Assembly (NCBI GenBank): GCA_026390695.1
Contig: JAPLFL010000021.1
Coordinates: 1-35,100, forward strand
From: Candidatus Kapaibacterium sp.
GTDB lineage: Bacteria > Bacteroidota > Ignavibacteria > Kapaibacteriales > UBA2268
Length of the DNA stretch: 35,100 nt
Direction of reading: 5' to 3'
The notes beneath the pieces are model-generated. The model was not told the DNA's origin and did no database searches. It was given only the letters and a program-made list of their open reading frames with translations. Below, piece by piece: positions 10,765-34,586 of the stretch; the first letter of the stretch is position 1; each line of letters begins with the position of its first letter. The translations under genes were made by a program, and so were the position numbers.

Positions 10765-10799
10765 CACTAACAATTAACCATTAATCATTAACAATTATC
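10765..10799. repeat. Heptad array overlapping the 3' end of nuoB
   Basis: Five 7-mers, CACTAAC, AATTAAC, CATTAAT, CATTAAC and AATTATC, begin downstream of nuoB and extend into its coding sequence. They encode the last residues (Ile-Ile-Val-Asn-Asp) and the stop codon (complement of 10781-10783). Confidence 0.8.
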
Positions 10800-11317
10800 T
10801 TCTCTTCTTCAGCTAACTTGGCTCTTTTTTTGAAGATAGCCTGTTGATTTATTTTCTTTTGTAATTTTACAATACCGTCAAGAAATGCTTCTGGTTTAGG
10901 TGGACAGCCTGGCACATAAACATCGACAGGAATAACGCGATCAATTCCCTTCAGAACATGGTAGCCATGTTCCCAATATGGTCCTCCGCTATTGGCGCAA
11001 GATCCCATCGAAAGCACATACTTGGGTTCTGCCATTTGCTCATAAAGAGTGATTATACGTTCCGCCATTTTCATTGTAACAGTACCCGAAATGATAATGA
11101 AATCAGCTTGACGGGGACTTGGACGAGGGATACAGCCAAACCGCATCAAATCAAAATGCGAAGCATTGACAGCCATAAATTCAATTGCACAGCAAGCAAG
11201 TCCGAAACTTAGGTACCAGTCTGATCGAGCACGTCCCCAGTTAAGTAAATCTTCGACTTTACCCAAAATAATGCCTTCAGCATTAAAAGGATCATCCAAT
11301 CTATTTAAAAATCCCAT
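10781..11317 (-). CDS. nuoB: NADH-quinone oxidoreductase subunit B (cluster N2)
   Basis: This subunit carries the terminal [4Fe-4S] cluster N2, which passes electrons to quinone (178 aa). Ligand cysteines are visible as the tandem pair Cys42-Cys43 ('[12 protein letters not shown]'), Cys107 ('[13 protein letters not shown]') and Cys138 ('[12 protein letters not shown]'). '[14 protein letters not shown]' is also canonical. The last residues 'KIIVND' are encoded by the heptad array, so the C-terminal tail appears to have been formed or altered by the repeat; this tail is not part of the conserved core. It follows nuoA by 70 bp. Confidence 0.97.
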
Positions 11318-15051: not shown

Positions 15052-15174
15052 AAGGCTGTCTCAAAAGCCTCATTTCTGTCATTCCTGCGAATGCAGGAAT
15101 CCCCTAAAGTGGGACTGGAAGGAGATTCCTGCATGCTCAGGAATGACAAGAAATTGAAGTTTTCACACAGTCTC
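15052..15174 (+). mobile_element. MITE-like palindromic element (family B) with terminal inverted repeats
   Basis: The left end AAGGCTGTCTCAAAAG and the right end TTTTCACACAGTCTC are imperfect inverted repeats of one another (compare GAGACTGTGTGAAAA). Between them lies a long palindrome made of GTCATTCCTGCG-ATGCAGGAATCC and its complement. It contains no transposase. A second internal unit without the left end continues to about 15236. Related copies are at 19975-20101 (inverted) and 32121-32334, and the palindrome core is also in the adenine deaminase gene. Confidence 0.75.
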
Positions 15175-15245
15175 GAATGCAGGAATCCACATTTTTCTGC
15201 CACTATAGGGGATTCCTGCATTCGAAGGAATGACAGAATAAAATG
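15175..15245. repeat. Second family B palindrome core
   Basis: A further GAATGCAGGAATCC...GGATTCCTGCATTC palindrome ending in GGAATGAC follows directly on the complete element. It encodes nothing credible; reading through it gives the translated repeat motif 'SFLRMQESP' and related peptides. Confidence 0.7.
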
Positions 15246-15408
15246 AGGATTATCAATTTCAGAACAAAACCTTTGAAATCAACAAATACACGATTTCCAA
15301 TTATTATTCGTTTTACAAAAAGTATTTTTAATAATTAAATTTAACAAGATGTACCCTATATTCTAACTAAAGATGAACTCAATTATAAGTTTGTCGATAA
15401 TTTAAAAA

Positions 15409-15668: not shown

Positions 15669-17666
15669 ATGCCCCAACAAAAAATATCCGGAAAAATCGT
15701 CGATGTAGTTAAAAAAGAAATATTCGACGGAATAATTACAATTGAAAATGGACGAATAAGCTCTGTGGATAGAATTGACTTGTCATTCCTGCGCATGCAG
15801 GAATCCACTATTGGGCCATGGAAGGAGATTCCTGCATGCGCTGGAATGACAGAACAGAAGGAGATTCCTGCATGCGCTGGAATGACAGAAAAAGATGGGA
15901 TTCCTGCATGCGCAGGAATGACAGATACTATTGAGTTTAATCATTTCATCCTCCCTGGCTTAATCGATGCACACATCCATATCGAAAGCTCTATGCTGGT
16001 TCCATCTGAGTTTGCAAGGCTCGCAGTTAGACATGGCACTGTGGCAACCGTTTCCGATCCTCATGAAATTGCAAATGTGTTAGGCCGAGAAGGAATTGAT
16101 TTTATGCTGCAAAATGCAGAATCGGTACCAATGAAATTCTATTTTGGTGCTCCGTCCTGTGTTCCCGCTACAAATTTTGAATCATCGGGTGCAGAAATCA
16201 CAGTTAACGATATTTCCGAGCTTTTGGATGATGTCAGAATAAAATATCTGAGTGAAATGATGAATTTTCCTGGTGTGATACATAATTTCCCCGATGTTGT
16301 TGAGAAATTAAATGCTGCTAAACTAAAGAATAAACCAATTGATGGCCATGCTCCGGGATTAACAGGTGATGATCTCAAAAAATACATCGAAGCCGGCATT
16401 TCAACTGATCATGAATGCTTCACAATAGAAGAAGCTGAAGCAAAAATTGCATTAGGAATGAAAATTTTAATTCGCGAAGGCTCTGCGGCAAAGAATTTCG
16501 ATGCTTTGAAATCATTAATTAAATCAAATAACGAAATGGTCATGCTATGCTCTGATGATTGTCATCCGGATGATTTGGCAACAGGACATATCAATCTACT
16601 CGTCAAACGTGCTTTAGATGATGGTTTTGATATATTCGATATTTTACGAACCTGCACACTTAATCCTAAAAATCATTACGGACTGGAAACCGGATTGCTG
16701 CAAATCGGCGATAGTGCTGATTTCATTGTAGTTGATAATTTTCAAGAGTTTAATATTCTGCAAACTTATATTGATGGGAATTTAGTTGCCGAAAATGGGA
16801 AGGAGACCTTTAGAAGAGTACCAATCTCCCCTGTTAATAGATTTCATGCGAAGAAGATTGAAGTGGAGGATTTGTTTGTTGCCCCCCCGCTTAATCCCCC
16901 TTTGAAAAATGGGGAGAATGAAGAAAACCCCCTTAATCCCACTTTGGAAAAGGGGGAAAATGAAGAAAACCACTTATCCCCCTTTGAGAAAGGGGGAAAT
17001 TTGGAAGAATTTGAAAATCCCCTAACCTCCTTTAAGATAGAGGGACATCTTGAAGCCCCCTTTTTCAAAGGGGGTTTGGGGGTTTCCGGTTCAATTCCAC
17101 AAATCCGAGTCATCGAAGCACTTGAAGGCGAACTTATAACAAATGAATTAATCTGCGATGCAAAAATTGAGAATAATTGCATTGTTTCGGATTTAGGGCG
17201 TGATATTTTGAAATTGGTGGTATTGAATCGTTACCAAGCTGTCAAAAATAACAGCGCAAAACCCGCAATTGCTTTCATAAAAAATTTCGGTTTTACACAC
17301 GGAGCAATTGCCAGCAGTGTGGCGCATGATTCACATAATATAATTGCTGTCGGTGCCGATGATGATTCTATCGTCAGAGCAATTAATTTAATAATAGAAA
17401 ATCAAGGCGGAATGTGCGCCGTGGGAGATGATATTGAGACAGTTCTTCCTCTTCCTGTTGCGGGCATTATGTCTTGTGATGATGCTGAACATGTTTCCGC
17501 ACTTTACTCCGCATTAAATCAAAAAGCAAAAGCCTTGGGATCGGCATTGAATGCACCATTTATGACTCTATCGTTTATGGCATTGCTTGTAATTCCCAAG
17601 CTAAAATTGAGTGATAAGGGATTGTTCGATGGTGGGAGTTTTAGGTTTGTGGATTTATTCAATTAA
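15669..17666 (+). CDS. ade: Adenine deaminase with two in-frame repeat insertions
   Basis: This amidohydrolase-fold enzyme converts adenine to hypoxanthine and ammonia in purine salvage. Metal-site and family motifs are 'LPGLIDAHIHIESSMLVP' (95-112), 'SDPHEIANVLG' (129-139), 'SCVPATNFE' (163-171), 'DGHAPGLTG' (225-233) and 'CSDDCHPDDLATGH' (294-307). The C-terminal adenine deaminase domain includes 'SSVAHDSHNIIAVGADD' and 'GGMCAVGDD'. At 665 aa it is longer than the usual 550-590. The surplus is two segments made of DNA repeats: residues about 38-85 (family B) and 405-474 (family A). Removing both leaves about 547 aa with conserved sequence flowing across the junctions. The frame is intact, and both inserts fall outside the motifs listed, so activity may be kept. 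The ATG at 15669 fits the family N-terminus. Confidence 0.93.
   Translation: MPQQKISGKIVDVVKKEIFDGIITIENGRISSVDRIDLSFLRMQESTIGPWKEIPACAGMTEQKEIPACAGMTEKDGIPACAGMTDTIEFNHFILPGLIDAHIHIESSMLVPSEFARLAVRHGTVATVSDPHEIANVLGREGIDFMLQNAESVPMKFYFGAPSCVPATNFESSGAEITVNDISELLDDVRIKYLSEMMNFPGVIHNFPDVVEKLNAAKLKNKPIDGHAPGLTGDDLKKYIEAGISTDHECFTIEEAEAKIALGMKILIREGSAAKNFDALKSLIKSNNEMVMLCSDDCHPDDLATGHINLLVKRALDDGFDIFDILRTCTLNPKNHYGLETGLLQIGDSADFIVVDNFQEFNILQTYIDGNLVAENGKETFRRVPISPVNRFHAKKIEVEDLFVAPPLNPPLKNGENEENPLNPTLEKGENEENHLSPFEKGGNLEEFENPLTSFKIEGHLEAPFFKGGLGVSGSIPQIRVIEALEGELITNELICDAKIENNCIVSDLGRDILKLVVLNRYQAVKNNSAKPAIAFIKNFGFTHGAIASSVAHDSHNIIAVGADDDSIVRAINLIIENQGGMCAVGDDIETVLPLPVAGIMSCDDAEHVSALYSALNQKAKALGSALNAPFMTLSFMALLVIPKLKLSDKGLFDGGSFRFVDLFN
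15781..15923 (+). repeat. Family B palindromic repeat inside adenine deaminase
   Basis: Four half-units of the GTCATTCCTGCGCATGCAGG type and its complement read in frame as 'SFLRMQES', 'KEIPACAGMTEQ', 'KEIPACAGMTEK' and 'GIPACAGMTD'. Length is about 143 bp, inserting roughly 48 residues before the first metal-ligand motif. It lacks the GGCTGTCTCAAAAG-type ends seen at 15052 and 32121, so it is a core-only copy, apparently amplified in tandem. Confidence 0.9.
16881..17090 (+). repeat. Family A palindromic repeat inside adenine deaminase
   Basis: Five or more CCCCCTTTGAAAAAGGGGG-like units, some diverged, are in frame and encode Pro/Lys/Gly/Asn-rich peptides ('PPLNPPLKNGENEE', 'APFFKGGLGV'). 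The run is 210 bp, so it preserves frame. It lies between the amidohydrolase domain ('FHAKKIEVEDLFV') and the C-terminal domain ('IPQIRVIEALEGELI'). Confidence 0.9.
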
Positions 17667-19922: not shown

Positions 19923-19974
19923 AATATTTTCATCCTAATTTGTGATTTTTTTAAATCATGACAGTTCATGCGAA

Positions 19975-20101
19975 TGAGACTGTGTGAAAACTACCTTTTC
20001 TTGTCATTTTTGCGTATGCAGGAATCTCCTGATTGGTATTGGAAGGGGATTCCCGCATTCGCGGGATGACAATAATTCCTAATTCATTAAGGAAATGATA
20101 T
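19975..20101 (-). mobile_element. Family B MITE-like element, inverted copy
   Basis: It begins with GAGACTGTGTGAAAAC, the complement of the right end at 15174, followed by the palindrome core (GCGTATGCAGGAATC ... GGGATTCCCGCATTC). It ends in a 36-nt tail, ATGACAATAATTCC to AAATGATAT (20066-20101), that recurs with one mismatch at 32345-32380. The tail therefore belongs to a longer repeat unit. The remainder of the 745-bp gap 19730-20474 contains no credible gene. Confidence 0.7.
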
Positions 20102-20153
20102 AATTGTATAAAATATACTTTTTATGACTTTATTACGCTTTTGTATTTTCCCG

Positions 20154-22286: not shown

Positions 22287-23429
22287 TTAGTAATTTAAAT
22301 TCTTTAAATAGTGTTCAATGATCGGATCAGGAGCCGAAAGCCCTTTCCCGGTTTGCTCCGAAGCTGCACGGCAACCTCCATTACAATCATAATATATTTC
22401 ACAATTCATGCAATACTCCGGTTTTATCTCTTTCCAACTTCGAACATAATCATTATTTAACAATTTGCCAAGTTTTTCCTCAAAAATATTTCCAATCACA
22501 CGTGGAGAATGATTGCAAATTCTCATATTCCCTTTAATATCAAATGTTACCGGCATTCGTTTAATATCCGCAGCACATGCAAAAGTTGGGATTGTGTCAT
22601 AATCATTAGGATTCAATATACATAAAGGAGTGCAAACATTCGATGTAATATTCATTTTCAAGTCCTTTGCTGCTTGATTTGCAGCACTGAACCCTGCTTT
22701 CAGTTCCTCCAAACTCGGAATTAGTTCATTGCTGTGCTTCAATCCTTCCCCACCGATATTATAACGTGTGAGCATAATTCCATTTATTCCAAGCGATTGG
22801 AGATATTCAATTGTTTGACGAAGATGCCCGATATTAATTTTGGTCAGCACTATATCTATGATTATTGAAGCATTTAGTGTTTGCAAAGTTTTGATAGAAT
22901 TAAGAACTCTTTCAAGTGCTCCTTTTTTACGAACCATGTAATCATGTACATCTGATAAATAAGAATGCAAAGGAAGAGTGAAAATACTAACACCAAGACT
23001 TACTAATTCTTTATATTGATTAGGTTTATCACTAATTCCATTAGTAATAATGCTCACCGATGCCTTCTTCATTCTGCAAAAAAGGATGAGTTCGCTAAAT
23101 CTTTCAGCTAAAAGCGGTTCACCACCAGTGAAAGTAATAGATTCGACATTAGCAGAGCTGAATATTTTCTTCAGGGTGCGGAGAGCGGAGGAATAGGAAT
23201 TAAGAGAAACCCCATTAGTCTCCCTTTGAGAAAGGGGAAAAATTCCAAAAGCCCCCTTTCTCAAAGGGGGTTTGTGGGTTTTTCCTGATATTATTCCCCC
23301 TTTGAAAAAGTGGGTTAGGTGGATTTCTTGATCATCACGCGGCATTTTCCATATATTATAACAATAAAGGCAATCTAAATTACAAAGCCAAGTTGTTTCG
23401 AAGATAATATAGTTGAGGGTGGGTTTCAA
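22287..23429 (-). CDS. Radical SAM/SPASM domain enzyme with in-frame repeat insertion
   Basis: This radical S-adenosylmethionine enzyme has 380 aa. The [4Fe-4S] motif Cys16-x3-Cys20-x2-Cys23 is in 'TTWLCNLDCLYCYN' and the SAM-binding 'TGGEP' is at 101-105. The C-terminal SPASM domain has Cys285, Cys305, Cys340, Cys343, Cys349 and Cys353 ('CMNCEIYYDCNGGCRAA') for auxiliary clusters. SPASM enzymes usually modify peptides or proteins (PqqE, anSME) or tetrapyrroles (NirJ). The next gene upstream encodes a Cys-containing putative lipoprotein, recalling a radical SAM/lipoprotein pairing annotated in Bacteroidota. Residues about 36-75 are a family A DNA repeat ('THFFKGG', 'KPPLRKGAFG') between the cluster loop and GGEP. 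Without it the protein would be about 340 aa. Confidence 0.9.
   Translation of the reverse strand: MKPTLNYIIFETTWLCNLDCLYCYNIWKMPRDDQEIHLTHFFKGGIISGKTHKPPLRKGAFGIFPLSQRETNGVSLNSYSSALRTLKKIFSSANVESITFTGGEPLLAERFSELILFCRMKKASVSIITNGISDKPNQYKELVSLGVSIFTLPLHSYLSDVHDYMVRKKGALERVLNSIKTLQTLNASIIIDIVLTKINIGHLRQTIEYLQSLGINGIMLTRYNIGGEGLKHSNELIPSLEELKAGFSAANQAAKDLKMNITSNVCTPLCILNPNDYDTIPTFACAADIKRMPVTFDIKGNMRICNHSPRVIGNIFEEKLGKLLNNDYVRSWKEIKPEYCMNCEIYYDCNGGCRAASEQTGKGLSAPDPIIEHYLKNLNY
23205..23324. repeat. Family A palindromic repeat inside the radical SAM gene
   Basis: Three units with CCCCTTTC/GAAAGGGG arms sit within the gene, about 120 bp in total, a multiple of three. On the minus strand they encode residues about 36-75. 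They are the same family as 36-145, 16881-17090 and 32046-32115. Confidence 0.85.
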
Positions 23430-32004: not shown

Positions 32005-32045
32005 TAGAGTTTGAGGTTTATAAAGTTTGTAAAGTAGAAAAATGA

Positions 32046-32115
32046 AAAGTTTTTTCAAAGGGGGATTTAATCAAATTCCCCTCTTTGCAAAAGAGGGGTT
32101 GGGGAGATTTAATCA
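32046..32115. repeat. Family A palindromic repeat downstream of gap
   Basis: TTTTTTCAAAGGGGGATTTAA is followed by TTCCCCTCTTTGCAAAAGAGGGG and a second GGGGAGATTTAATC. It is the same family as at 36-145. An ATG at 32042 gives an open frame through this and the next repeat, but it encodes only repeat-derived peptides, so no gene is called. Confidence 0.85.
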
Positions 32116-32120
32116 AATTT

Positions 32121-32380
32121 GGGCTGTATCAAAAGCCACATTTCTGTCATTCCTGCGTATGCAGGAATCCCCTAAAGTGGTACTGGAAGTAGATTCCTGC
32201 ATGGGAGCTTGTGAGAAAACTTCAATTTCAGTCATTCCTGCGTATGCAGGAATCCCCAATTGCGCCATGGAAGGGGATTCCCGCATTCGCGGGAATGACA
32301 GATACGTGAATATTTCGTGTTTTCACACAGTCTCATGGGCGGGTATGACAATAATTCCAAATTCATTAAGGAAATGATAT
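32121..32380 (+). mobile_element. Family B MITE-like element with 36-nt tail
   Basis: The left end GGGCTGTATCAAAAGCC and the right end TTTTCACACAGTCTC (to 32334) match the element at 15052-15174. Two palindrome core units lie between them, so this copy is about 214 bp. Next to it, 32345-32380 repeats the 36-nt tail of 20066-20101 with one difference, probably a second, truncated element. The remaining bases to 32471 are AT-rich and featureless. Confidence 0.75.
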
Positions 32381-32471
32381 TATAGTCTCATTTTAATCAA
32401 AACTCAATTTCCAAATAGAAGTCTAATATAAAAGGATGTTTTAAATATTTCTCTTTCCTAACGTTTAAATT

Positions 32472-34493
32472 TTATAGTTTTATGAACTTATACAATTTTT
32501 CACCACCTTTTATAAAATACAAACCTGCACTTAACCCAGAAACATTGATTATCTTTGAGTATTCTCCCTTTAATTGATATCTGATTATAAGTTCACCATA
32601 AATATTAATTACTGATAAATCGGTATATTGCAATTCTTGATTTGTAATTGAAATAAAGTCGGTTGCTGGATTTGGAGAAATCTGAAATTGATTATTAATA
32701 ACATTTAAGTTATTTTCTACCGGAGATATTCCATAATCCGCAAATTTGGATGAATAAACACCGAAATTTGTAGCTACATCAATATTCTCATCATCAAGGA
32801 AGATATAATTAATATTTTTATTGATATTCCCGTAACTTATTCCATTCCAATCAGATCCGTTATTTGTGCTAAGAAAAACACCTTTTTCTAATGAACCGGC
32901 AAAAATATAATTGCGAAATCCGGCAATTGAATTAAAATTTTGGGTTGAAACTGCTGCGGCTGAATTATTCCAAGTAGTTCCAAAATCGGTAGAGCGAAGT
33001 ATCCCATTGAGATTAAGCGGAATAAAAATATTATTCTGATTAACGTAAAGCTGATTAATCGGAAGATAATCATACGGGGCATTTAAATGATTCCAGTTTT
33101 TTCCTTCATCTGATGAATAATAAACACCCTTGAAATCGGTACCTAAATAGATATTATTTCCACTTTTGGTTAAAAAAGTTACATTTGTATATGTTAAACT
33201 ATTATTACTAAGAGTCCAGTTTGTGCCGTAATCATTTGAGAAATATATTCCATCGAAATTGCCTACAACTACTTTATCGGCATAAGATAAAACAGATTTA
33301 ATTGATTTATTGGAAATTTTATTATTTGATGCAATCCATGTATTTCCATTATCTGATGAAATATAAACTCCTGATTCGGTACCTGCAATAATATGATGAT
33401 CGCTGGAGACTGTTAAACAATTTACTTTGATGGAATCGTTTATTCCTTGGTTAAGATTTTCCCAAATATCATTATCCTTCATTCGGAACAATCCCGCATT
33501 AGTACCTGCAAAAAGATATGGGTTTGATTTTGCTAATGTATTGATAATTCTATTACCCAGACCTGCCCTATATTTGATCCAATCAGAGCCATTATTGGTG
33601 GAATAATAAGCACCCTTTTCAGTCCCTATAAAAATCCAGTTCCCTGGCATAAACACTGAATTAACATTCTGAATACCATCCAAATTTGAAACTTTATCCC
33701 AGTTCAATCCCCGATTAAAAGATATAAAAGCTCCTCCGCCACGGGTTCCGACTATTAGCGAAAATCCATAAGTTGAAATAGAAGTGACCGATAAATTTGT
33801 TAATCCCGAATTAATCTGTGTCCAGTTTGCACCATGATCACTGGATGAAAATACACCTTCTGCATCCGTTGTAGCATAAATATTATTGGCCGATATTGAT
33901 AGCGATGTTATCAATGAACTTTTCAATCCATTATTCACCGGCCACCAGTAAGACCCCTGATCAGTGGAAATGAAAACGCCACCTCCAAAAGTACCTGCAT
34001 AGATTGTATTACTGGAAATAGCAAGCGAATTAATATATTTTACAGCTAACCCGTCATTAACTTCTGTCCAATTAGTGCCGTTATTGGTTGAAATAAATAC
34101 CCCTGCACTCGGAGTTCCTGCAAAAATCGTATTGCTTGATATAGCTAATGTTTTAATATATGTATCACTCAAACCGCTATTGACCTGCTTCCACGAAAAG
34201 CCACTATCGGCTGAGAAATATACTCCATCGCCGCTTGTACCTGCAAAAGCTGAATTACCTGAAAAGACCATAGCCTTTACAGATGATCCAGTTGCTGTAA
34301 ATGATGCTGCTTTCCAAGTATCCCCATAATTTGTGGAGAAAAAGAGCCCACGGTTGCTAATCTCGGCAAAAACCTTTTCACCATAATTAACAATAAAGTT
34401 GGAATTTTCGTTATATAATTCATTATGAACAGGCACCCATTCAGCCTTCACAGCTGCAATAGAAGCTAAAAATAGTAAAAGATAGCGAATCAA
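32472..34493 (-). CDS. Secreted Asp-box/BNR beta-propeller protein with T9SS sorting domain
   Basis: This 673-aa protein probably starts at the TTG at 34493, because GAGGT lies just upstream and the signal peptide 'MIRYLLLFLASIAAVKA' follows at once. A TTG at 34523 would add ten residues. Twelve clear Asp-box repeats of S-[TS]-[DN]-x-G-x-x-W form and one decayed repeat ('KDNDIW') are spaced about 40-45 residues, indicating one or two beta-propellers of the sortilin/YCF48 type. The last 75 residues ('FQISPNPATDFISI', then 'LSAGLYFIKGGEKLYKFIKL') are a type A T9SS C-terminal domain. It is a surface or secreted protein. The ligand is unknown, and many such propellers are structural. Confidence 0.88.
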   Translation of the reverse strand: MIRYLLLFLASIAAVKAEWVPVHNELYNENSNFIVNYGEKVFAEISNRGLFFSTNYGDTWKAASFTATGSSVKAMVFSGNSAFAGTSGDGVYFSADSGFSWKQVNSGLSDTYIKTLAISSNTIFAGTPSAGVFISTNNGTNWTEVNDGLAVKYINSLAISSNTIYAGTFGGGVFISTDQGSYWWPVNNGLKSSLITSLSISANNIYATTDAEGVFSSSDHGANWTQINSGLTNLSVTSISTYGFSLIVGTRGGGAFISFNRGLNWDKVSNLDGIQNVNSVFMPGNWIFIGTEKGAYYSTNNGSDWIKYRAGLGNRIINTLAKSNPYLFAGTNAGLFRMKDNDIWENLNQGINDSIKVNCLTVSSDHHIIAGTESGVYISSDNGNTWIASNNKISNKSIKSVLSYADKVVVGNFDGIYFSNDYGTNWTLSNNSLTYTNVTFLTKSGNNIYLGTDFKGVYYSSDEGKNWNHLNAPYDYLPINQLYVNQNNIFIPLNLNGILRSTDFGTTWNNSAAAVSTQNFNSIAGFRNYIFAGSLEKGVFLSTNNGSDWNGISYGNINKNINYIFLDDENIDVATNFGVYSSKFADYGISPVENNLNVINNQFQISPNPATDFISITNQELQYTDLSVINIYGELIIRYQLKGEYSKIINVSGLSAGLYFIKGGEKLYKFIKL

Positions 34494-34497
34494 TACG

Positions 34498-34502
34498 ACC
34501 TC
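34498..34502 (-). promoter_or_regulatory. Shine-Dalgarno that supports the TTG start at 34493
   Basis: The minus-strand sequence GAGGT ends 4 nt before the TTG at 34493. The alternative TTG at 34523 has no comparable site, and the signal peptide begins directly after 34493. Confidence 0.55.
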
Positions 34503-34586
34503 AAAATTATTATAAATTGTCAATATAAAAGAATAAGACGAATAAAAGTTACATTAGTGTAAAATTTTTGCTATATTCCGGCACTT

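Follow-up and report, generated by a model that had tools for sequence, protein, structure and literature searches.

The CGTC class of REPs has been defined by an end tag CGTC, which is TGTC or CCTC in many units, a stem of 8-9 bp starting with AT, a loop of 4-5 nt and a tail near CCA (Di Nocera et al. 2013, PMC3733652). In the parts of that survey consulted here, these repeats are mostly inverted dimers and mostly intergenic, occur in Bacteroidetes and Chlorobi, and are without a known transposase. The same parts describe REPs inserted in frame within genes of several species, tRNA synthetase genes included, and REP clusters encoding 43-82 aa in R. conorii and in Thauera, which hosts GTAG repeats; clusters are rare for CGTC repeats according to Table 1. 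Two of the palindromic elements (RPEs) of R. conorii fall into the class, RPE-4 being CGTC-4 and RPE-6 being CGTC-1. In Rickettsia, 19 RPE-invaded frames are on record, and a guanylate kinase carrying an RPE was found to be active (PMC2229807, seen in part).

The DNA analysed here, referred to as the window, is a stretch of 35,100 nucleotides that forms contig C78 of a genome of 4,633,311 bases in 129 contigs. A preliminary description had reported in it a palindromic repeat, called family B there and TGTC palindrome here, that is read in frame inside the adenine deaminase gene ade. We consider it very probable that a REP dimer and an unrelated palindrome independently entered ade, grew in place, and are read in frame as tolerated loops.

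Two repeat-derived inserts in ade

The features of the gene are as follows.

15669-17663, plus strand: ade, adenine deaminase frame with two repeat-derived inserts, 665 aa
15781-15923, plus strand: insert 1, residues ~38-88, inverted dimer of the TGTC palindrome (assigned to the CGTC-class REPs) plus two more reversed units
15783-15805 (plus), 15827-15849, 15863-15885 and 15899-15921 (all minus): units of insert 1, each with at most 1 mismatch to the pattern
15821-15925, plus strand: tandem array of the reversed half-unit in insert 1, TRF period 36 nt, 2.9 copies
16885-17085, plus strand: insert 2, residues ~408-474, C-run palindrome (CCCCCTTT..AAAGGGGG)
16896-16915, 16938-16956, 16977-16996 and 17055-17074: units of insert 2, 1-2 mismatches
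16885-16999, plus strand: tandem array within insert 2, TRF period 42 nt, 2.8 copies

By its score against the equivalog model TIGR01178 in a profile search (610.5 bits, above the cut-off of 472.5), the product is a putative adenine deaminase, and ade is the single gene in the genome over the family cut-off. Pfam placed Amidohydro_1 at residues 93-373 and Adenine_deam_C at 489-658. It is highly improbable that ade is in decay and that a loss of need for the enzyme explains why the inserts are tolerated. The presence of two large inserts in a single gene would suit such decay, but the 665-codon frame is intact, and all columns invariant among 41 aligned proteins are present, including H102, H104, E106, D296 and D297 (a presence that follows by construction). 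Moreover, leuS and nadE also carry inserts, and for each of them a single copy exceeds the family cut-off.

The four units of insert 1 lie within this open frame, as had been claimed, and read SFLRMQES followed by three IPACAGMT; GPWKEIPACAGMT and NGENEENPLNPTLEK are stretches of the predicted Ade product. Insert 1 is probably translated. Its location at residues 38-85 held, with the end moved to ~88; it does stop before the HIHIESS motif (residues 102-108), and the suspected amplification of half-units is borne out by the 36-nt array, in which copies 1 and 2 carry T while copy 3 and the consensus carry A. Insert 2 was absent from the preliminary description. Its palindrome is unrelated in sequence to the TGTC palindrome and lies between the catalytic and C-terminal domains. 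A search of the window against Rfam gave no matches.

Alignment with relatives, which the preliminary description had proposed, found the extra residues to be absent from them, an outcome that favours the reading given there over its stated refutation. We aligned 109 relatives, comprising 29 loci from one search and the best 80 of 583, some possibly from the same genome; the closest were mostly named Bacteroidota bins. Residues 36 and 93 of the query enclose 56 residues, compared with 5-18 (median 6) in all 108 relatives whose sequence spans this site, and residues 42-77 were matched by none of the 109. Likewise, the query has 73 residues between 404 and 478, compared with 5-21 (median 5) in 108 relatives. 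From this we infer insertion in this lineage, as against loss in the relatives. That a native ade loop came to resemble the repeat by chance is scarcely conceivable for insert 1: nothing was found in favour of such an origin, and it is contradicted by the reversed control of the pattern, which gave 0 matches, by the absence in 108/108 relatives, and by the next best genome copy, with 86% identity across 103 bases.

In an AlphaFold2 model built from 41 sequences (the ade query and 40 of 80 relatives), mean pLDDT was 84.4 and fell below 50 solely at residues 50-86, 414-472 and 525-527. Both inserts thus have very low confidence, almost nowhere else seen in the protein, and are predicted to be floppy loops, although low pLDDT at these sites may only reflect that no relatives align there. 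Strands 29-35 and 93-96 flank the point where insert 1 leaves the protein; insert 2 lies in the linker before strand 478-483.

The TGTC palindrome in this and related genomes

As the preliminary description had it, the palindrome is also found between genes, where most of its copies lie. Allowing up to 3 mismatches, the 23-base pattern matched the genome 305 times in forward and 277 times in reverse orientation, with 0 matches of the reversed control; the number of units is lower than 582, because some match both strands. Fixed-position samples contained 24 units in 400 kb (≤4 mismatches) and 59 in 800 kb (≤3 mismatches), which extrapolates to ~280-340 per genome. Only 2/26 clusters in the 800 kb fell in ORFs of ≥150 aa, one of them convincing (L236) and the other a single unit with 3 mismatches. 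Since the coding fraction, measured on half of this sample, was 0.86, the repeat strongly avoids genes. Further copies in the window are listed below, none with an assigned strand.

15054-15250: intergenic TGTC copies directly upstream of ade, units 15079, 15124 and 15211, with extra terminal sequence (direct repeat D2, inverted repeat I2)
19965-20107: diverged intergenic TGTC copy, units 20004 and 20048 (repeats I1, D17)
32122-32386: TGTC copies, units 32147, 32232 and 32276, overlapping a mechanical 111-aa ORF (32042-32377)

The 111-aa ORF does not by itself point to a gene.

The units start TGTCATTCC, which supplies the TGTC tag, and fold as ATTCCTGC / GAAT / GCAGGAAT followed by CCA or CCC, i.e. 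an 8-bp stem starting with AT, a 4-nt loop and a CC-rich tail. The palindrome thus fits the CGTC REP class as a TGTC variant. Among units up to 130 nt apart, at least 7 neighbours in genes and at least 63 outside were in opposite orientation at 44 or 45 nt (counting the commonest types listed), compared with 12 and 40 same-orientation neighbours. Inverted dimers predominate, as they do for CGTC REPs. For the intergenic element, which had been labelled 'MITE-like', 'REP inverted dimer' is the better term. As a weak side observation, inverted dimers in genes were all 44 nt apart (7/7), and 44 of the intergenic pairs listed had this spacing.

Four Y1_Tnp loci are present in the genome. None had the TGTC repeat on both sides among the five longest inverted repeats listed per locus, and at one of them these included a TGTC dimer on one side only. 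Separately, the Y1_Tnp gene at C15:210307-210645 is flanked on either side by an array of a third palindrome, ACATCCAATGTC..GACATTGGATGT (L129:10112-10279 and 10792-11233, periods 43-44), resembling a REP plus transposase unit; a further palindrome (CCCATCCCTCTCC..GGAGAGGG; L009:817-905) lies near a Y1 transposase gene that contains a stop codon.

TGTC matches were found in 50/100 relatives, mostly few. The highest counts, 72 and 75 in G014 and 55 and 62 in G018, were well below the 305 and 277 of this genome. There was no same-genus genome among the 100, and hence no nucleotide-level empty site and no dating of the inserts. In G018, two TGTC units 36 nt apart are read in frame towards the end of a frame of 753 aa (L245:6873-6931), indicating that in-frame behaviour is not confined to this genome. 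That it is general is spoken against by a translated search of nine repeat-bearing relatives, covering one of several reading frames, which returned 109 matches in five genomes, the sole frame longer than 150 aa holding a stop.

Other invaded genes and probable growth of the arrays

To list invaded genes, 150/276 and 150/357 candidates were scored. The TGTC family occurred in 12 ORFs of ≥150 aa, of which seven were accepted: ade, nadE (L125), sbcD (L127), a type ISP-like methylase gene (L151), valS (L154), an acetoacetyl-CoA synthetase gene (L156) and lnt (L158). One, hypF (L157), was uncertain with one 2-mismatch unit, yet is counted as a gene in the spacing statistics below. Three were rejected (L126, L130 and L164; 3-4 mismatches, no visible insert), and the N-terminal stretch in L168 was doubtful. 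For the C-run family, four of seven ORFs were accepted (ade, a radical SAM gene in the window, L151 and leuS in L165), while L166, L167 and L168 were not. Later additions are a glycosyltransferase (L191) and a 440-aa frame with two TGTC units at 1-2 mismatches (L236), and, for the C-run palindrome, a DUF4406 protein (L175). Two candidates were dropped: C53:17618, a 153-aa hydrophobic frame, and C37:57379, where stops lie inside and the repeat is upstream of a separate gene. The window contains two further C-run loci.

23210-23332, minus strand: C-run palindromes translated within a radical SAM protein, units 23220, 23251 and 23296
65-152, no strand assigned: C-run copies near the contig start, units 81 and 123 (D3)

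In the radical SAM ORF (22290-23429, minus strand), Pfam Radical_SAM spans 195 residues (16-210) for 160 profile positions (7-166); the C-run units sit presumably between the cysteine motif and the GGEP motif.

Comparison with known structures located several inserts, with homology on both flanks. ValS has 61 residues (607-667) against 10 in T. thermophilus ValRS (1gax), at a site where the anticodon-binding domain begins; acetoacetyl-CoA synthetase has 105 against 18 in 4wd1; and LeuS has 59 residues of C-run repeat against none in 1h3n, directly before the TTRPDT motif, which we take to be that of the editing domain. LeuS has a further excess of 36 residues at 143-178 that is not repeat-like. 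In SbcD, Pfam Metallophos covers 265 residues for 190 profile positions; in Lnt, the array lies between LNT_N (13-172) and CN_hydrolase (346-552); and the glycosyltransferase carries a single inverted dimer between two Pfam domains (239 and 278). The NadE array lies just beyond the matched part of the profile (5-223), and homology vouches for the frame only ahead of the array. Several inserts lie at domain boundaries, a pattern that may be due to chance. The methylase was invaded by both palindromes, and in ValS and the methylase a C-run-type PL..KEG or PFPKG stretch adjoins the TGTC stretch, the one in ValS being unmatched by the C-run pattern; this would fit a loop that, once it tolerates one insert, collects others.

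The notion that collapsed or misjoined repeats in the draft produced the inserts draws on the fragmentation of the assembly into 129 contigs, on the gap in the nadE array, and on repeats at or near contig starts (C78:65, C73:65). We regard it as quite unlikely, because the frame is kept across two independent ade inserts, and kept frames with homology on both flanks recur in ValS, LeuS and acetoacetyl-CoA synthetase. The ade array of 2.9 copies of 36 nt would also lie within ordinary read length, even if the array length may still be wrong. Insert 1 is thus probably free of assembly error. The length of the nadE array is not fixed, since 70 N lie within it (L125:8140-8209). As side observations, this gap was left unbridged by the assembler, and the array is probably longer or variable; C-run copies at equal offset in C78:65-141 and C73:65-141 suggest an assembly break at such repeats.

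We also weighed whether the inserts are functional, as a protein-binding or regulatory loop or as an mRNA hairpin acting on ade, and kept by selection. The 143 bases of insert 1 have strong hairpin potential as RNA (-77.2 kcal/mol, z = -10.4; 0/200 shuffles as good), the arrays retain codon-multiple periods, and the LeuS insert adjoins the TTRPDT motif. Such a role is nevertheless very unlikely, given that the same peptides appear at unrelated sites of unrelated enzymes, that the insert sites are common to no homologue, and that translation of the TGTC repeat uses three frames or more, giving IPACAGMT (ade), DSCIRRND (nadE, sbcD) and VIPAHAEI (lnt).

Besides 36 and 42 nt in the two ade inserts, TRF periods were 42 in nadE, sbcD and lnt, and 45 in leuS. 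Periods were divisible by 3 in 7/7 genic arrays, compared with 10/15 intergenic rows (one locus counted twice). Same-orientation spacings were multiples of 3 in 12/12 cases in genes but in 12/40 outside (Fisher p = 1.3e-5), a contrast that holds partly by definition, because genes were recognised through their intact frame; moreover, spacings from the same array depend on each other, and part of the stretches had been chosen for ~42-nt spacing. The 17-base spacer of nadE was identical at 0.88-1.0 in 6/6 unit pairs (the 0.88 pairs run into two N), whereas spacers of different genes were identical at 0.12-0.53. Units of nadE thus share a gene-specific spacer, unlike units of other genes, which argues for duplication in place. 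In sbcD, one of three pairs reached 1.0 and two 0.47, and in ade identity was 0.47-0.71. The last units of sbcD and ade are without the shared spacer (0.47), as expected at an array edge, yet this weakens the evidence for duplication in these two genes. Overall, the in-gene arrays look locally duplicated.

Tandem periods in this genome also favour multiples of 21 nt, so that tandem growth need not break the frame. In fixed-position samples (array periods 12-130; 800 kb from 12 genomes for the relatives), such periods made up 28/49 arrays here and 5/33 in relatives (p = 2e-4), four of the five belonging to G014; each other modulus from 17 to 26 accounted for at most five arrays in this genome. 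With repeat-targeted stretches included, the figure was 57/85. The 21-nt units are mostly unrelated to one another (12/528 pairs alike, 0.45 expected). A strict 21-nt quantum is disfavoured by the ade 36-nt and leuS 45-nt steps, which are multiples of 3 and not of 21. It is conceivable, if doubtful, that a lineage-wide tandem duplication with a quantum of ~21 bp (two helical turns, seven codons) acts on any sequence, invading palindromes included. If so, the quantum would let palindromes lengthen in essential genes without frameshift, giving rise to length-variable disordered loops in NadE, SbcD, Lnt and Ade; as a duplication mechanism, the preference would explain frame-neutral array growth and could be tested by population sequencing. 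A narrow literature query on tandem periods of 21 bp and 42 bp in bacteria found no description of them, a result that argues only weakly for absence. Arrays with a period of 21 nt or a multiple reach ~14 copies (e.g. L125:9958-10246, L154:1272-1522 and L126:9988-10206). Elsewhere, a 683-aa minus-strand frame in the window (32472-34523) contains direct repeats, a number of them at spacings of 120-123 or 486-489 nt.

Proposed origin and comparison with known systems

In our proposal, an inverted dimer of a CGTC-class REP, of the TGTC variant, would have entered ade where a loop joins two strands of the N-terminal beta domain, and its reversed half would then have duplicated in tandem in 36-nt steps. 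Independently, a second, unrelated palindrome would have inserted into the linker that joins the catalytic and C-terminal domains, and grown in a 42-nt step. Both would be read in frame as unstructured loops remote from the metal site, and their persistence would reflect tolerance by the enzyme, none of the steps having shown a benefit. The account is passive throughout: REP dimers would occasionally land in genes, in-frame insertions into loops would survive, and local duplication would lengthen them. Since ade and other core enzymes carry two unrelated palindromes, genome data can reveal directly where permissive loops lie.

The C-run palindrome has neither the CGTC-class nor the GTAG tag, and a literature search by peptide strings, which gave no match, found no description of it. 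GTAG REPs, REPINs and RAYT systems are likewise short palindromes in inverted pairs with many copies per genome, but their tag is GTAG, whereas that of the palindrome in ade is TGTC. Coding minisatellites, too, are in-frame arrays whose period is a multiple of 3; here, a mobile palindrome makes up the unit, and the step in part follows the genome-wide preference for multiples of 21.

The agreement is close with CGTC REPs, which, in the parts of PMC3733652 consulted, are like the TGTC palindrome in tag, stem, loop, tail, inverted dimers, intergenic bias and in-frame copies. What we describe is, on that reading, familiar behaviour of a familiar REP class in a further host, and the list of intragenic REPs in Additional file 3 of that paper may already include Bacteroidota genes. 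The difference is that clusters are described there as rare, whereas this genome has in-gene arrays that look locally duplicated in codon-multiple steps, together with an unrelated palindrome in ade; we found no literature description of one gene with two families, of local amplification that keeps the frame, or of a 21-nt preference. Rickettsial elements had been named as the nearest parallel, and this stands: RPE-1, RPE-4 and RPE-6 are palindromes translated in frame in conserved genes, the same kind of insertion as here, and since RPE-4 and RPE-6 belong to the CGTC class (PMC3733652, as far as consulted), the parallel amounts to kinship of element type. The host lineage differs, as do the presence of two unrelated families sharing genes and the tandem growth. 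Translated REP insertion, best known from Rickettsia, is thereby extended to a bacterium whose relatives are mostly labelled Bacteroidota.
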